DNA of 20,231 nucleotides from a virus: IMG/VR virus record IMGVR_UViG_3300028025_000499, positions 1 through 20,231 of that record; one strand, given 5' to 3'. The position numbers were made by a program, and so were the translations under genes. The notes under the pieces were generated by a model that was not told the DNA's origin, made no database searches, and was given only the letters and a program-made list of their open reading frames with translations. The number at the start of each line of letters is the position of its first letter. Position 1 is the stretch's first letter. Below are positions 4,678 through 16,174 of this stretch, one piece after another.

Positions 4678-4988
4678 ACTACTCCTGTCCTAGTGCGCCA
4701 TGCACGATTCATTGGGTCATTTAACCAAGCAGCAAAACGCTTGTCATCGAGAACAGCAAAGCCACGCATGATGCCTTGTTTGTTTAGATCATCAATCACA
4801 GTCATTGGAATTGAAGCTACCTTATTGCCAAACAAATTATCAGACCATCTTGCACGTTCATCAAAGGAGTTATATTCCTTTTTATTCTGTTCAACAATGT
4901 CAGTAACATCCTGACGAGTTTGAATAATGATGCCGCCCTCACCATCAGCATGAACAGCAGTTTGTCTAAAATTGTTAGGATTTTGCAT
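4674..4988 (-). CDS. Small head-associated hypothetical protein
   Basis: This 104-residue protein is encoded directly after the major capsid gene and its terminator. It carries GGIIIQTRQDVTDIVEQNKKEY near residues 19-38 and ends with a conserved-looking segment FAAWLNDPMNRAWRTRTGVV. Proteins of this shape, with a C-terminal LNDP...R..PG-type ending, are common right after capsid genes in phages, but no defined function is known to me. It is linked by an ATGA overlap to the adaptor gene, so it is co-translated with connector parts. The context suggests a head completion or decoration role; that is inference. Confidence 0.65.
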   Translation of the reverse strand: MQNPNNFRQTAVHADGEGGIIIQTRQDVTDIVEQNKKEYNSFDERARWSDNLFGNKVASIPMTVIDDLNKQGIMRGFAVLDDKRFAAWLNDPMNRAWRTRTGVV

Positions 4989-5011
4989 AGCCTAATTCTA
5001 TCAGTTTGAGT

Positions 5012-5052
5012 AGAAAAGAAAATGCCCCAGATGTTTAAGTCTGAGGCATTTT
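5012..5052 (-). terminator. Intrinsic terminator after the capsid gene
   Basis: AATGCC(5021-5026)/GGCATT(5045-5050), one mismatch, then CAGA(5028-5031)/TCTG(5040-5043), around an 8-base loop. Leftward RNA then reads UUUUCUUUUC. The element lies 17 bases beyond the capsid stop. It is probably partial, limiting downstream genes relative to capsid, since no clear promoter follows. A U-run on the plus side also makes it nearly bidirectional. Confidence 0.8.
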
Positions 5053-10938: not shown

Positions 10939-12198
10939 TTAAACAATCCAACTTGGTGCTTTGTTGATAGGCTTGCTCCAAGTGGAGTGACCCTCATCTA
11001 AACCTAATGCGAGGTATCTGAACGAGTCAGACCCATGACTTGACCAATCGTGTAGTGGTCTTTCATAGAAGATCTTTCGCTTCTCGTCATAGTCTCTGCG
11101 GTAGTTTCTCAGGCAATTCAGTCCAATCTGTACCTTTGGCACATTGAACCAGCATCTAGGCAGTAGTCGCCTCACAGCCTGAATACCATCGTCTAGGCTC
11201 ATTCTGGGGGCGATCTTGATCTCTAGACCTGCTTCCTCAAGCATCTCCATTCGACTCTTACCTGTGCCTAATTCCCTTACCCTAACGTCATGGGGCAAGA
11301 TGTGTTCAGCCTTCTCATAGTCGTTGTCTCTAATCCACTTTACATAGTGGTCTAGTCCTACCCCGTGGTTCTCGTAGTAGTCCAGTAGCCTAACCTCAGT
11401 TCCTACCAGTTGAGCCACCCAGATACTCGTAGAGTCACCCATTCCCAAGTCCCAAGCGGTAAAGGTTCTGCTAAGTTCCTCTCTGGGAATCTCTTGCATA
11501 TGCTTCTTGTCTTCCAGTTCGTTCAGGATTTGCCCGTAGTACGAACCCTCAACGGCAGCATCGAAGGAACACTCAAACTCTTGGCGGTACTTATCCTCGC
11601 CCATTTCGTTCTTAGCTGCTTTCAGTTCTGTGTCATCCACCACCCCTGTCTCAGAGGCTTTGAACTCTAGTAAACCCCAACCATCCTCTTTCTCAGCCCT
11701 GTCTCGCAGTTCTTTGAAGTGGTTGTGTCCCTTTGGTGTGCCAATGAATAGACACCAGCCTTTTCGGTCTGTCAGGGCAGGTCTGACAATATCTGTCCAT
11801 ATCTTAGGGTTCTGATCTCCTACCTCGTCAATAATACACCCATCAAAAAACTGTCCTCGCAAGGAATCAGGATTGTCTGAGCCATACAGTTGGATACGTC
11901 TACCCCAGAAGTCAACCCTCAGTTCTGAGATGTTGTTAGTACCGCCTAGCGGTGTAGTGTATTTAACAAGATAGTCCCAAGCTACCCTCTTAGCCTGACC
12001 ATATGTCGGGGCTATGTAGGCGTATCTGGGTGTTTCTCTCTCGTTTAGCACCGCCTCACGGATTAGGTGATTGAGAGCAGCTACTGTTTTCCCAAATCTT
12101 CGGTGAGCCACCACCACGGCAAAACGCTTGCCTTCTAGCAACTCGTGAACCTTTAGCTGGTGCTCCCTTGGCTTGTAGGGAATGACTATTTCGCCCAT
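10939..12198 (-). CDS. terL: Terminase large subunit
   Basis: This 419-residue DNA-packaging motor has an N-terminal ATPase and C-terminal nuclease. Walker A is AHRRFGKT (31-38), Walker B is IIDE (122-125), and the coupling motif GTPKG is at 153-157. In the nuclease half, D250 (TAWDLG), H303-D304 (LPHDVRVREL) and D391 (GSDSFRY) fit the metal-binding acidic residues of the RNase H-like fold. Length is at the short end for large terminases but both domains look whole. The start overlaps the small-subunit gene by 13 bp. The protein moves DNA into the prohead through the portal encoded next. Confidence 0.93.
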   Translation of the reverse strand: MGEIVIPYKPREHQLKVHELLEGKRFAVVVAHRRFGKTVAALNHLIREAVLNERETPRYAYIAPTYGQAKRVAWDYLVKYTTPLGGTNNISELRVDFWGRRIQLYGSDNPDSLRGQFFDGCIIDEVGDQNPKIWTDIVRPALTDRKGWCLFIGTPKGHNHFKELRDRAEKEDGWGLLEFKASETGVVDDTELKAAKNEMGEDKYRQEFECSFDAAVEGSYYGQILNELEDKKHMQEIPREELSRTFTAWDLGMGDSTSIWVAQLVGTEVRLLDYYENHGVGLDHYVKWIRDNDYEKAEHILPHDVRVRELGTGKSRMEMLEEAGLEIKIAPRMSLDDGIQAVRRLLPRCWFNVPKVQIGLNCLRNYRRDYDEKRKIFYERPLHDWSSHGSDSFRYLALGLDEGHSTWSKPINKAPSWIV

Positions 12199-12464: not shown

Positions 12465-14657
12465 CTAGTAGTCTAACAGACTTGTTATCTCTTTGCGTTT
12501 TTCTTCATCTAGTAAGCCAGCCGCAGGTATTGCAGGAGTAGCCGCAAATAAGGGTTGACCCTTAGATGTTCCTTGTTTCATTTGAGGAGTAATGTCTAAA
12601 TAGCGGATAGGCTCATCTCTAGCCATATCTCTAAACATTACATCAATTTTGCGCTTTTGTTCACTAGGAAGATTTCTATAAGTCTCGCCTCGTCCATAAA
12701 CTTGTGCGGCTAACTCATCTTTAGATTGTGTTTTGCTGATATTGATTGAAGTCTCGCCTACGCTTGCACCATACTTTTTGCCGTACTTATCCAAGAATTT
12801 AGGATAAATCTCATCATAGTACTTCTTCATTCCTTCGCCACCAACTTGCAAGTCAATGCCTTCGAGAACCTTACGAGAAGCGGCTTGACGACCTTCGCCA
12901 GAGATAATTTTTTGGGCTAATTCTTTGCCAACGATACTAGGCAATTCTTTTTCTGGAATGTTTGATAGAGTTGTTCCACCAAAATCACTTTGGAAAATAC
13001 CTTCTCCCTTTGGTTTAACAGCTATTGCATAAGTACCATCTTTATTTTTCTTGTAATTCATAGCATCAAAACTTTCAGCAAGATTAAATCTGTCTGCTTG
13101 TTGTCTGCCAGTAGTCAATCCAATGCGCTCATAGCCATTGTCGGCAGCGTACTTAGTTAGTCGCTTTAGTGCCAACTGATACCATGTGTCTTTAAATGGC
13201 GCATCAGGTACTGCGTTATCGCCACCCATTCCTGCACTTCTGTTGCGCTCAATAACGCTTCTTTGTTCGCTATTTAAATCAGCAAAAGATGGGTCATCAT
13301 CAAGTTTGTTTTGGTTATACCATTTTTCCAAACTTTCTTTGGATTTGTAACCCTTTTCCCTACCAGCTTGATGCCAATCAGATTGTATTTCCTCAACCAA
13401 TAGCATCTTCTTACCATCAGCATCAATGCGATCATTGACCCTCATGTGGGCTAAGATGTTTGGTTGGGCAAAGTGAGATGATTCAAAGTTTTCTGTTTGC
13501 CTAGTAACAGGTATTTTTTCTAATTGCTTGATATATGCTTGCAAATCATCAGCTTTTGATGCAAATGAAATAGCTTTTTCCATATTACCTGCATTAGCAA
13601 ATTCATTTTGTAATTCACGCATAGTTTCCATGCGTTTTGTAAATCGTTCGATTTCCAGTGCTGTATTAGGCATTGCTTCTGGCAATGTCAGCAATATCTC
13701 ACGATAGTTCTCACCACCAGCTAATTGATACTTGTCGTATTTGCTAGGTCCATAAGGAATACTTGAGTTATATTTATTTACAAATGCGTCAGCTTCATCT
13801 GCTGTGTCATAAATACCTTGCAATCTTGCATCATTTGTATAAATAAAATACTTATTTTCGTCAGGATTAAATTCACTAAATACTGGACTTTTATCACCAG
13901 AACCAGCCAATTGTCTTTCTTGAACATCTACACGATTGTTAGCTAAATAGTCTTGAACCTCTTGTTTAGTAACATTAGGTTTATCTCTTAGGAAATCTTC
14001 TAATCCTGTAAATTGCAGTTCTTCCTTCTTAACATCAGGGGCTTTCATCAAGTCGTTAATGAAAGACTGACCAGTTCCCTTGTTTCTGTTTAAATTTAAT
14101 GCGGCTTGCTCAGTCGCAGAATAGAAACCAATGTCTGAAACTGGTGCTTGTGGCTTAGTCTGTAATAGACTTTCAATTGGCTCTGTTTTAACAGAAAGCA
14201 AACCTTGCTCTGGAGGCACAACAAATAACGGCTGTGGCACTACCTTGCTCATCATGGTGTTAGGGCGCTGACCAAGCATAGTAGCCGCCAGTTCTTCACC
14301 TACTACTTGTCCTACCTTTTGAACACCTCTAACGGCTGGCATTGGGTTTAGCGGAACAAATGATGCCGCCTGACCTGCAACCTGACCAACTCTTGATGTG
14401 GGTGCAAGTGGTAAATCTTTTAAAAACTTTTCTGTTGTGTAAGGAAACTGCGCTGGTGCATCGTAACTTACATCCCCGAACATTTCTGTTGGGCTTGGTG
14501 ATCTAAGCAAATTTGCAATGTCAGCAGGTGCGCCTAGCAATCCAGCCAAACGACCTCGTAAAACATCAATGGGCAGATTAGCAGAATCAGAGGGCAACCC
14601 CTGTCTGCGAGGTTTCATTTGTGGAAAAAAACCAAATGCTGCGCCTAGATCAGACAT
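12465..14657 (-). CDS. Large polyvalent-type protein of the packaging region
   Basis: This 730-residue protein starts by TAATG overlap with the DUF6496 gene. The N-terminal 60 residues carry LPIDVLRGRLAGLLGAPADI, a hydrophobic module common in phage proteins thought to be injected. The rest matches a domain seen in phage polyvalent proteins: FTGLEDFLRDKPNVTKQEVQ (216-235), AGGENYREILLTLP (313-326), QPNILAHMRVNDR (398-410), VEEIQSDWHQ (421-430), LALKRLTKYAADNGYERIGL (495-514) followed by TTGRQQADRF, GEGMKKYYDEIYPKF near 605-620, and LDITPQMK near 687-694. In the family the E-E-I-Q-S-D and T-T-G segments are the most constant, so an unknown enzyme is likely. It may enter the host with DNA to counter defences; that is inference. 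Confidence 0.72.
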   Translation of the reverse strand: MSDLGAAFGFFPQMKPRRQGLPSDSANLPIDVLRGRLAGLLGAPADIANLLRSPSPTEMFGDVSYDAPAQFPYTTEKFLKDLPLAPTSRVGQVAGQAASFVPLNPMPAVRGVQKVGQVVGEELAATMLGQRPNTMMSKVVPQPLFVVPPEQGLLSVKTEPIESLLQTKPQAPVSDIGFYSATEQAALNLNRNKGTGQSFINDLMKAPDVKKEELQFTGLEDFLRDKPNVTKQEVQDYLANNRVDVQERQLAGSGDKSPVFSEFNPDENKYFIYTNDARLQGIYDTADEADAFVNKYNSSIPYGPSKYDKYQLAGGENYREILLTLPEAMPNTALEIERFTKRMETMRELQNEFANAGNMEKAISFASKADDLQAYIKQLEKIPVTRQTENFESSHFAQPNILAHMRVNDRIDADGKKMLLVEEIQSDWHQAGREKGYKSKESLEKWYNQNKLDDDPSFADLNSEQRSVIERNRSAGMGGDNAVPDAPFKDTWYQLALKRLTKYAADNGYERIGLTTGRQQADRFNLAESFDAMNYKKNKDGTYAIAVKPKGEGIFQSDFGGTTLSNIPEKELPSIVGKELAQKIISGEGRQAASRKVLEGIDLQVGGEGMKKYYDEIYPKFLDKYGKKYGASVGETSINISKTQSKDELAAQVYGRGETYRNLPSEQKRKIDVMFRDMARDEPIRYLDITPQMKQGTSKGQPLFAATPAIPAAGLLDEEKRKEITSLLDY

Positions 14658-14821
14658 TATTTCATCCTACCCATTTTCCTAGCTGCCTCTGCCAAAGCAA
14701 TGGCGATTCCTTGCTTACGATTAGTAACGACCTTACCACCCTTACCAGAGTGTAGCTTGCCCTCTTTGAACTCGCCCATTACTTTGGACATTTTCTTTTC
14801 GCCAGCTTTTGTCATTTTCAT
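14657..14821 (-). CDS. DUF6496-type small basic protein
   Basis: This 54-residue protein starts at ATG 14821 within an ATGA overlap and stops in the TAATG that starts the next gene. The core KVMGEFKEGKLHSGKGGKVV, then NRKQGIAIALAEAARKMG, is the DUF6496 pattern (K.M.EFK.GKL.SG...V..RKQAIAIALSEA). Such proteins are frequent in phages and some bacteria and are basic, perhaps DNA-binding. It is short enough to be skipped by length cut-offs. Function is unknown. Confidence 0.78.
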   Translation of the reverse strand: MKMTKAGEKKMSKVMGEFKEGKLHSGKGGKVVTNRKQGIAIALAEAARKMGRMK

Positions 14822-14937
14822 TTTTTAGGCTTCTTTGCTTTATTCTTTGCAGTACGCTCACCCCTGACAGGCTTAGTCTTTTTCTGCATAAGTTTCTGCA
14901 TCATCTCCAACGCTTGCTGATTTGTTGTGCTCATCAT
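14818..14937 (-). CDS. 39-residue basic protein
   Basis: It starts at ATG 14937 with GAGG six bases upstream, and stops at TGA 14818-14820 which overlaps the next ATG. The sequence has a short helical start (QQALEMMQKLMQKKTK) and a Lys/Arg-rich end (RTAKNKAKKPKK). It overlaps the 3' end of the Cys-rich gene by 65 bp in another frame. I do not recognise it. Support is the good ribosome site and tight coupling on both sides. It could be a nucleic-acid-binding peptide. Confidence 0.55.
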   Translation of the reverse strand: MMSTTNQQALEMMQKLMQKKTKPVRGERTAKNKAKKPKK

Positions 14938-15379
14938 CTTTTTCCTCGGTTATTGGCCCACCTGCAATCCATGCCTCACAAGTTCTCTTAGAGGCACACT
15001 TAAAATCGAACACTTCGCAGTAACCTAAGTCACCAGCGTCAATGACTTCCCAAGCATCCATCTCCTCGCCATTCATCTCTAAACCACTCTCAATGCAAGC
15101 AAGCATCTTAGGGGTTTGGATAAAGGCTGAACAGTTGCCACAGCGAGACTTTTTGGCTTGCTCTGGTGAGTTTCTCCAAGTCTTAGAGATCTCACGCCAG
15201 TAATCCATGTTGGCTTCGTTAGGATTCATTGGGCCGTAGTTGGCCTTATCAATGGCTTTCTGACGATTCTCAAGATTGACCTCTACATCGCCTGTAGCAA
15301 CAGGACAAGCATCGCCTTTTTTCTCTTGGCTTTGTATCTCAATTTCAATCTTTACGGATGGTTCTAGCAAGCCTGTCAT
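14873..15379 (-). CDS. Cysteine-rich phage protein, first gene of the late operon
   Basis: 168 residues are counted from ATG 15379, chosen because GAGG lies six bases upstream; the ATG at 15391 would sit only six bases from the predicted transcript start. Residues about 77-135 form a conserved-looking core: KKSRCGNCSAFIQTPKMLAC then AWEVIDAGDLGYCEVFDFKC and KRTCEAW. The cysteines at 80, 83, 95, 121, 128 and 134 could bind zinc or an iron-sulfur cluster. Similar proteins occur near packaging genes in other aquatic phages, as I recall. The segment GDACPVATGDVEVNLENRQK near 22-41 is also typical. Function is unknown. The last 25 residues are low-complexity and overlap the next gene. Confidence 0.75.
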   Translation of the reverse strand: MTGLLEPSVKIEIEIQSQEKKGDACPVATGDVEVNLENRQKAIDKANYGPMNPNEANMDYWREISKTWRNSPEQAKKSRCGNCSAFIQTPKMLACIESGLEMNGEEMDAWEVIDAGDLGYCEVFDFKCASKRTCEAWIAGGPITEEKDDEHNKSASVGDDAETYAEKD

Positions 15380-15403
15380 GGCAATCCTCATGGAGTTTGT
15401 ACC

Positions 15404-15432
15404 ATTATCTCACGAAAAAAAAAGAGAGACAA
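15404..15432 (-). promoter_or_regulatory. Late promoter with its -35 inside the terminator hairpin
   Basis: Leftward -35 TTGTCT (15427-15432) and -10 GATAAT (15404-15409) are separated by exactly 17 bases. The -35 overlaps the loop and 3' arm of the terminator stem and the spacer contains its T-run. The predicted transcript would start near 15397, just ahead of the Cys-rich gene. Confidence 0.6.
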
Positions 15433-15440
15433 GTCTCTCT
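15415..15440 (-). terminator. Strong intrinsic terminator of the early operon
   Basis: AGAGAGAC-TT-GTCTCTCT is an 8-bp perfect stem with a two-base loop (a longer loop if the closing pair opens), followed directly by a run of Ts on the leftward strand (nine in 15415-15423). It lies 22 bases beyond the stop of the HNH gene and separates early from packaging genes. Confidence 0.9.
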
Positions 15441-15462
15441 AAAACTCATGGCAACGAGTGCC

Positions 15463-15720
15463 TTATCCTAACAACTTTCTCAGGGTTTCGTTAAGTACTG
15501 ACATTTCGTCATGCTTCATAACTGCCCAAATGCGTTTCTGCCCGTGAATCCCGTTAAAAGAACCCTGATGGCAATCCTTACAAAGCGGAATACAAAGGTA
15601 TTGCTGATGTTGCTCAATGTGGTGAGCATCACTTGGCCCAGACTGACCACATACCCCACAAGGCATCTCTTTGATTCTTGCGAGGTGCAGCCTCTCTCTG
15701 GCACTTAGTTTGTTATTCAA
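15463..15720 (-). CDS. Ref-like HNH nuclease
   Basis: This 85-residue protein shows a zinc and HNH-type core: C21-G-V-C24, GPSDAHHI (28-35), then YLCIPLCKDCHQGSFNGIHG with C47, C50, H51 and H59. The D-A-H-H and C-x-x-C-H pattern matches the Ref family (P1 recombination enhancement function, a RecA-dependent nuclease) and related phage HNH proteins. It is much shorter than P1 Ref (about 186 residues), consisting of the catalytic core only. It is the last gene of the early operon, overlapping the stop of the gene before it, and directly precedes the terminator. A DNA-cleavage role in recombination or repair is likely; RecA dependence is not shown. Confidence 0.82.
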   Translation of the reverse strand: MNNKLSARERLHLARIKEMPCGVCGQSGPSDAHHIEQHQQYLCIPLCKDCHQGSFNGIHGQKRIWAVMKHDEMSVLNETLRKLLG

Positions 15721-16174
15721 TCTCTACCACCAGATTACTATTTGACCTTATGTGGTCTTTTGTTTTCTGAATGTATCTCTCAAACTCACTTCTTGAGATA
15801 CTTCCTTGCTGTAGATCAGCAAACTGAATCAAGTCTCGACAGGCTTGTATCGTCTGACCATCCAAACCCATCCTCAATGTCTCTTGGTAGCGAATGGCGG
15901 CTTTATGTAGCCCTTCCTGTGCTTTCTCGCAGATAGGTAGCACCTCTGGGCCAACTCCATTCTTTCCCATCATCTCAGACAGGTTTAGAACATCTACCAA
16001 GGTACGCCAATCACCGACAGTTCCTTGTCCCTTAGTGATGGCCTCCAAAGCGGAATACTCAAGCATCCTTAGTTTGTCCAGCTTGTCCCTCTGGGTGATC
16101 GCTGCCCCCACTATTGCATGGGTCACATTGTCCACCAGATTCCAATGCTTTCTCTTTGTTTTCTTGCGCGTCAT
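15713..16174 (-). CDS. Conserved phage hypothetical protein
   Basis: 153 residues are counted from ATG 16174 (MTRKKTKRKHWNLVDNV), which has GGA eight bases upstream; an upstream in-frame ATG at 16210 is less likely. The body is helical: QRDKLDKLRMLEYSALEAIT, then GDWRTLVDVLNLSEMMGKNG and VGPEVLPICEKAQEGLHKAA. I recall this family as a common hypothetical in early regions of phages and prophages of Burkholderiales. The N-terminus is very basic, suggesting contact with DNA or RNA. The 5' 116 bp overlap the preceding gene in a different frame. Function is unknown. Confidence 0.72.
   Translation of the reverse strand: MTRKKTKRKHWNLVDNVTHAIVGAAITQRDKLDKLRMLEYSALEAITKGQGTVGDWRTLVDVLNLSEMMGKNGVGPEVLPICEKAQEGLHKAAIRYQETLRMGLDGQTIQACRDLIQFADLQQGSISRSEFERYIQKTKDHIRSNSNLVVEIE

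Follow-up and report, generated by a model that had tools for sequence, protein, structure and literature searches.

Can one short stretch of DNA close an early phage operon and, over the same bases, open the next one? We addressed this question for a single IMG/VR virus record of 20,231 bases (the window), which is classed as linear and is possibly a fragment. All genes named here lie on its minus strand. According to the original prediction, the terminator that ends the early operon and the promoter that starts the packaging operon share the same bases. This was borne out, as the two elements do overlap and relatives keep both in register. We conclude that an intrinsic terminator closing the early operon probably overlaps a sigma70-type promoter of the late (packaging) operon. 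The coordinates of the features are collected in Table 1, where L numbers designate related or compared loci.

Table 1. Positions of the features in the window and in the other loci.
Feature	Position	Strand	Basis or remark
Last gene of the upstream operon, 85 aa	15463..15720	(-)	phrog_1588 (function unknown) and a weak HNH endonuclease match
Stop codon TAA of the 85-aa gene	15465-15463	(-)	sequence
Upstream stem-loop ACTC-GTTGCCAT-GAGT with (A)GTTGCC	15444..15459	(-)	just past the early-operon stop codon
Intrinsic terminator hairpin AGAGAGACTTGTCTCTCT	15423..15440	(-)	18-nt perfect palindrome; arms covary in relatives
-35 element TTGTCT	15427..15432	(-)	inside the hairpin loop and 3' arm
T-run, nine Ts, the first being the last stem base	15415..15423	(-)	most of the promoter spacer
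Extended -10: TG (15412-15411), a, GATAAT (15409-15404)	15404..15412	(-)	TGnGA[T/A]AAT in 76/76 junctions
Predicted late-operon transcription start	15397	(-)	inferred, 7 nt past the -10
First gene of the downstream operon, 168 aa	14873..15379	(-)	distant relatives annotated as high potential iron-sulfur protein
Large terminase subunit (TerL), downstream (packaging) operon	10939..12198	(-)	tblastn, <=63.9% identity to annotated terminases
Second terminator-then-promoter junction	4988..5052	(-)	hairpin 5052-5019, TG 5003-5002, TAGAAT 5000-4995, ATG 4988
RNA-like insert copies	L264:2259-2396; L298:2159-2251, 2348-2422; L273:2300-2390; L276:1345-1437		
L146 terminator-embedded promoter	L146:5247-5277		TTGACT-17-TATAAT
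L155 terminator-embedded promoter	L155:7064-7094		TTGCTT-18-TGaTATAAT

The gene content agrees with the predicted placing of an early operon upstream and a packaging operon downstream. The scan of the upstream proteins gave a primosomal/DUF1376 protein and weak matches to nucleases, several proteins having no match at all, and the downstream operon carries TerL. The labels "early" and "packaging" are fair as descriptions of gene content, not of measured timing. The downstream operon encodes, in order, proteins of 168, 54, 730 and 77 aa, then TerL and further proteins. The 77-aa protein, without a Pfam or PHROG match, is a putative small terminase subunit named from its position, and the genes beyond TerL are read as portal, capsid and tail by their order, as in Methylophilales phage Venkman, whose terminase shares 61.7% identity with TerL of the window. 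The iron-sulfur-like 168-aa protein has no Pfam or PHROG match either; it has 279 confirmed relatives in viral contigs. The 730-aa protein (12465-14657), encoded between the iron-sulfur-like gene and the terminase genes, matches phrog_7348, a 2,564-residue PHROG profile labelled endolysin, partially (residues 359-639), and it also weakly matches Ntox4, below the cut-off. Near-identical DNA was absent from annotated phages, and the 55-nt junction element had no blastn match. A host and prophage search of genome contigs with the 168-aa protein and TerL as queries gave no confirmed relative. Rfam returned three matches in 14800-16000, all far below the gathering scores.

On the minus strand, the stop codon is followed by the stem-loop, TTT, the palindrome, which reads AGAGAGAC-TT-GTCTCTCT (15440-15423), and eight more Ts (TTTTTTTT, 15422-15415). 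Then come CG, the TG, a, the GATAAT, a short leader with GAGGA and the ATG 15379. The gap between the TAA and the -10 is 53 nt. With GAGGA at 15389-15385, this ATG is a more likely start codon than the ATG 15391. The junction thus holds a GC-containing RNA hairpin directly before a U-run, as expected of an intrinsic terminator. An 8-bp perfect stem followed by nine Ts had been predicted. The palindrome and the nine Ts are there; however, folding of the RNA gives a 7-bp stem closed by a CUUG loop (-7.5 kcal/mol), a stem of 8 bp would have a loop of just 2 nt, and the nine Ts include the last stem T, so that the count is either 7 bp and 9 T or 8 bp and 8 T. The hairpin is modest when compared to the mean of -9.8 kcal/mol across 35 nested hairpins. 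The -35 TTGTCT (4/6 matches) was found where it had been predicted, in the loop and the 3' arm, and it is separated by exactly 17 bp from GATAAT (5/6 matches). The TG of the extended -10 was not part of the original prediction. With it, the site has the features of a sigma70-type extended -10 promoter, namely TGn with a TATAAT-like hexamer and a -35 within 16-18 bp.

A single window is weak evidence for this arrangement, because its promoter-like matches are not above chance: 23 were found and 30.3 (sd 5.5) were expected from shuffles. Terminator-like matches numbered 19, with 16.0 (sd 4.0) expected, and we rejected both counts as evidence. The full nested configuration was defined as a hairpin with a stem of >=6 bp with >=3 GC pairs and >=6 T in 8, and a promoter with a -35 of >=4/6 overlapping the hairpin, a spacer of 16-18, TGn and a -10 of >=5/6. 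It occurs once on the two strands of the window and arose in 2 of 2,000 dinucleotide-preserving shuffles, under thresholds chosen after the site was seen. Conservation among relatives is therefore the main evidence, and it is the comparison of their sequences that makes the case strong.

To collect relatives, viral contigs were scanned with the downstream protein only; 280 stretches matched, 279 were confirmed and 80 were kept. L017, L038, L056, L057 and L060, which are cut by contig ends, were left out, and 75 relatives together with the window gave 76 junctions in 43 distinct forms. A hairpin of >=6 bp, a T-run (>=5 Ts) and the extended -10 were present in all 76, and TTG lay exactly 17 bp from the -10 in 72. 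In the four exceptions, L005 and L006 have TATACA at 17, and L019 and L031 have TTG at 16. Thus, among these junctions, the expectation that relatives with the hairpin would also keep the promoter spacing held well, as none lacks the -10. We also searched viral contigs with a motif pattern. It gave at least 120 stretches, of which 114 were read, and being motif-selected they were excluded from the counts. Among the matches listed, the full element precedes the same gene except at a contig end (L149), and many other matches were plainly unrelated. In L220, which belongs to the window clade, the hairpin and GTTGCC are lost and a -10 is kept.

The register was assessed after adding 15 junctions from the first of the three further scans described below, which were chosen for TTGCC and TGnGANAAT and are hence biased to presence; L217, a cut member of the window clade, is not in this set. 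The resulting 91 elements contain 39 distinct hairpin and tail combinations. TTG stands at 17 bp in 37 of these 39 forms and in 87 of the 91 elements. It turned out that the lengths compensate each other: counted as the stretch from TTG to the end of the stem plus the tail, they are 11+12 nt in 16 forms, 12+11 in 13, 13+10 in 7 and 10+13 in one, the window. When tails were shuffled among hairpins, a mean of 12.9 forms (at most 25) stood at 17 bp, and none of 20,000 shuffles reached 37. The set includes 28 distinct hairpins with 23 distinct arm pairs, and the loop-side pair is T-A in 10, A-T in 11, C-G in 4 and G-C in 3. The full pairing of all arms in this set is true by construction, since the finder takes only paired arms. 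As a control, the same finder was applied to 35 distinct protein-selected elements, and the mean best hairpin score was 10.51. After the right halves were re-dealt among them it was 6.93 (highest 7.93; 0/300 as high as 10.51). Pairing is thus conserved while the letters change, as is expected of a terminator. The shuffles ignore kinship, so these permutation counts overstate independence and should not be taken as probabilities; the covariation evidence is more robust in its four length classes and its four pair types. We have shown by this comparison that both signals exist and are kept in register though their letters differ.

In the relatives, the -35 is poor outside TTG (mostly 3/6 matches), and the promoter may thus depend solely on the extended -10. 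It could then be argued that the junction holds only a terminator and an extended -10, with the loop TTG kept for the hairpin as part of a CUUG-type loop and the 17 bp incidental. This would fit the observation that TTG is the only well-kept part of the -35 and that none of the 54 distinct nested forms in the window clade lacks the TG. L005 and L006 have no TTG, and the motif-selected L168 has none at 17 bp. However, TTG persists in loops whose length is 4, 5 or 6 nt and in which it is preceded by C, by T or by no base at all, and once it lies partly in the stem (GAGGGGT[TGAT]ACCCCTC). Given that TTG keeps its distance to the -10 in 37 of 39 forms, with tails that lengthen or shorten to match, we consider the extended -10 on its own an improbable explanation. 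Since a perfect dyad overlaps the promoter, the palindrome might alternatively be a protein-binding operator and not a terminator. An operator would not tolerate compensatory change into 23 arm pairs, and the T-run is kept in 76/76 junctions, which makes the operator very hard to believe.

How far the overlap extends was assessed with three further scans, seeded with proteins about 38% identical to that of the window. In these, 44 of 45 matches were confirmed; 181 of 202, with 80 kept; and 100 of 111, with 80 kept, only contigs absent from the first scan being used from the third. The contig-edge loci L221, L243, L308, L309, L322, L378 and L382 were left out. Also removed were loci in which no start was present, the upstream sequence was too short or the protein fell outside 100-230 aa. 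We classified 225 junctions from 120 nt of upstream sequence, the -10 being sought 14-42 nt before the start codon. Both signals were nested in 118, namely 91 of the window clade and 27 of a distant clade with other hairpins; 31 had the terminator only, 28 the -10 only and 48 neither. Here the expectation that hairpin and promoter go together fared less well, as 31 junctions have the terminator without a -10 and 28 the reverse. Since some lineages are terminator-only or promoter-only, the coupling is not obligatory. In the two named phages inspected here the signals are split: ctnlZ23 has TGtGATAAT without the hairpin, and ct2t2046 has GTTGCC and a hairpin without this -10.

The distant nested junctions are of two types. 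One reads GGGTAG-TTGATT-CTGCCC with TTGATT in the loop, a spacer of 16 and TGgTAAAAT. The other reads GGCGGT-TTACGG-ACTGCC with the -35 TTTACG, a spacer of 17 and TAAAAT or TAGAAT; its -10 is without TG and its -35 without TTG. At least 10 changes of the nested state are required on a tree of 80 rows. Of the 23 rows on the window side, 22 are nested, the fork being weakly supported (66/98), and the distant clade mixes all states. The "neither" labels of L264 and L307 are artefacts of the 120-nt search: both carry a nested element about 190-300 nt upstream of the gene, before an RNA-like insert. At such a far-upstream place, L270 has kept the promoter without the hairpin. Judged from these sequences, both signals are firmly kept in the window clade, and outside it the two modules separate.

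In distant relatives, the RNA-like insert separates the junction from the iron-sulfur gene. Its arms ACGCATG(A/G)GGATTG ... TCCTCA..C.TGTTGG are paired, and its middle is variable, with units of 65-138 nt. Besides the loci listed in Table 1, it is present in L263, L268, L270, L294, L299, L307, L310, L311, L314 and L315, and in L273 and L298 it occurs as two tandem copies. In total, 15 distinct copies were found at 16 loci by an arm-pattern search, so the constancy of the arms is partly by construction. The insert region of L298 folds at z -4.45, and Rfam gave no match at the insert sites of the 8 loci searched. Upstream of the junction, L298:1195-1261 is the Rfam int-alpA RNA (43.1 bits, above the gathering score).

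Another conserved element of the junction is (A)GTTGCC. One of GTTGCC, GTTGCA and ATTGCC occurs in 144 of the 149 junctions that have a terminator, as opposed to 9 of the 76 that have none, and GTTGC is found in 26 of the 31 terminator-only junctions. When GTTGC occurs <=45 nt upstream, the terminator is nested in 96 of 111 distinct cases, as against 7 of 113 other terminators of the same loci; among those 7, L215 and L060 are the junction element itself, with the motif outside the criterion, and two more are the L146 and L155 elements of Table 1. (A)GTTGCC tracks the terminator and not the promoter, and it may be a regulatory RNA site; we read it as a putative RNA element in the terminal part of the early transcript. 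It is surrounded by stems such as ACTCA/TGAGT, ACCAA/TTGGT and AAACTCA/TGAGTTT, although several forms of the window clade have none. The stem score was 5.81 in the window clade and 4.74 for re-dealt flanks, and 4.83 and 3.88, respectively, over all lineages (0/1,000 as high in both cases). We rejected three other roles. An activator site does not fit, as the spacing between GTTGCC and the -10 ranges over all values from 43 to 50 and the motif is also present where no promoter is seen. Pairing of GTTGCC with the terminator, as in an attenuator, is absent in the window clade and so is not a general role; by eye, such pairing is possible in some distant lineages, as between GTTGCC and GGCGGT in the L266 type. 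For a long-range pairing GAGTTTT/AAACTC, the upstream copy changes while the downstream one stays, again by eye.

The terminator of the capsid gene (5052-5019), followed by CAAACTGATAGAATTAGGCTATG, is the other strong terminator of the window. Scanning with the capsid protein matched at least 600 relatives, of which 599 were confirmed, 80 kept and 79 long enough. This hairpin type is present in 76 of the 79, and TGnTAGAAT stands exactly 6 nt before the ATG in 76 of the 79; L437, L450 and L464 have no such -10, yet they have a hairpin with a T-run. The predicted start would be the A of ATG 4988, giving a leaderless message. No TTG-type -35 was found in the hairpin of this second junction, and no GTTGCC at its terminator.

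How could the first junction work? RNA polymerase arriving from the early genes would meet the 7-8 bp hairpin and the U-run and terminate. The terminator loop would give the TTG of the -35, the 3' arm and the U-run would form the 17-bp spacer, and TGnGATAAT would come next. Late transcripts would start about 26 nt past the last base of the hairpin; since this start lies beyond it, late RNAs could not form the hairpin and would escape termination. The terminator would also shield the late promoter against upstream transcription. A terminating polymerase would stop on the U-run, some 17-26 nt short of the predicted start, where its footprint would cover the -35 and the -10, and a polymerase bound at the promoter for initiation would block an incoming one. 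Because each would cover or block the other, termination and initiation should be mutually exclusive at any one moment. We infer the use of the host polymerase, the start site, the shielding and the mutual exclusion. Shielding and mutual exclusion follow from the anatomy of the junction; the timing that had also been proposed does not, and any downstream tandem promoter, nested or not, would suffer readthrough interference.

Whether the overlap regulates anything can be weighed against several alternatives. The layout may simply be compact and unregulated, arising from the short junction space and exerting no control beyond insulation. The small intergenic space (53 nt from the TAA to the -10) and the frequent changes of module states in the distant clade are consistent with this, whereas L264 and L307 have ample room, with the terminator about 190-300 nt upstream, and are still nested. 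We regard the compact layout as a real possibility, somewhat short of an even chance. It is also conceivable that the terminated polymerase stays on the DNA and re-initiates at the promoter beneath, early transcription thereby feeding late transcription, because in vitro, according to excerpts of PMC6978380, PMC11347151 and PMC6978322, post-termination polymerase remains on DNA and re-initiates at nearby promoters. The second phage terminator, too, is directly followed by a conserved extended -10 (76/79). However, the diffusion given in these excerpts extends over about a thousand bp or more, so the sharing of bases is not needed for a hand-off, and we find it doubtful.

Regulated antitermination would mean that the GTTGCC stem-loop binds a phage or host factor and allows readthrough into the late genes, the nested promoter being a second supply. 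The position of (A)GTTGCC just upstream of the terminator in very different lineages speaks for it, as do its association with the terminator and not with the promoter alone and the stem scores above those of re-dealt flanks. Lineages with a terminator and no visible promoter need either readthrough or a promoter elsewhere. In MW202481.1, a named phage whose terminase is related, a gene located ahead of the terminase is annotated "phage antitermination protein Q", which makes this mechanism conceivable. On the other hand, the early proteins scanned in the window gave no antiterminator match (many match nothing, and the record is a fragment), several window-clade forms are without the stem, and GTTGCC could instead mark a recombination boundary. 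All in all, we consider antitermination unlikely. Still more speculative, and in our opinion distinctly improbable, is a one-step early-to-late switch in which the GTTGCC stem-loop sets the efficiency of the terminator and the stopped polymerase is handed to the embedded promoter, with a repetition after the capsid gene at a leaderless promoter. If it were true, the last act of early transcription would load late transcription.

The overlap of terminator and promoter, which is our preferred reading, matters in practice. It is customary to predict and design terminators and promoters as independent elements, and 118 of 225 junctions hold both over the same bases; annotation that masks terminators can lose promoters. 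The offsetting lengths in the window clade are natural variants for studying polymerase between termination and re-initiation. For early/late control in this uncultured group of phages, GTTGCC offers a specific candidate.

In the filamentous phage M13, both the terminator and the gene III promoter at the gene VIII/III junction are active. As in the window, the terminator of the upstream gene and sigma70-type hexamers share one short intergenic stretch, which reads TCGAAA-17-TACAAT, one base, then AAAGGCTCC-TTTT-GGAGCCTTT and a T-run (NC_003287.2). The two genomes are unrelated, and the geometry differs: in M13 the -10 precedes the hairpin and the start would fall inside it, whereas in the window the -35 is part of the hairpin and the start comes after it. 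Closer in geometry are two other phage contigs, L146 and L155, where a hairpin arm or loop supplies the -35. They differ from the window in their hairpins and in their genes; judging by eye from the translations, a T4-like DNA polymerase follows the L146 element and a capsid-like protein precedes that of L155. As both look genuinely nested in unrelated phages, the arrangement may arise repeatedly. Late control of phage lambda (pR', Q, tR') also places a promoter and a terminator at the early/late boundary. There, however, the terminator is downstream of the late promoter, whereas that of the window is upstream and overlapping. Lambda has Q, and no Q gene was recognised in the window, although MW202481.1 has one so annotated.

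In the excerpts of PMC6978380, PMC6978322 and PMC11347151, recycling of bacterial polymerase likewise links a terminator to initiation at an adjacent promoter. It is described there as an enzyme property on separated elements, and base-sharing with a conserved register is not part of that description. The available part of PMC4351075 reports predicted leaderless promoters in Cluster O mycobacteriophages and contains no nested terminator, and that of PMC10319736 holds nothing relevant to nested terminator-promoters. Among the open-access matches listed, there was no description of a -35 inside a phage terminator loop with a conserved register, which is weak evidence. When compared to the known systems, each half of the junction is an ordinary element, and the conserved overlap is what is new.
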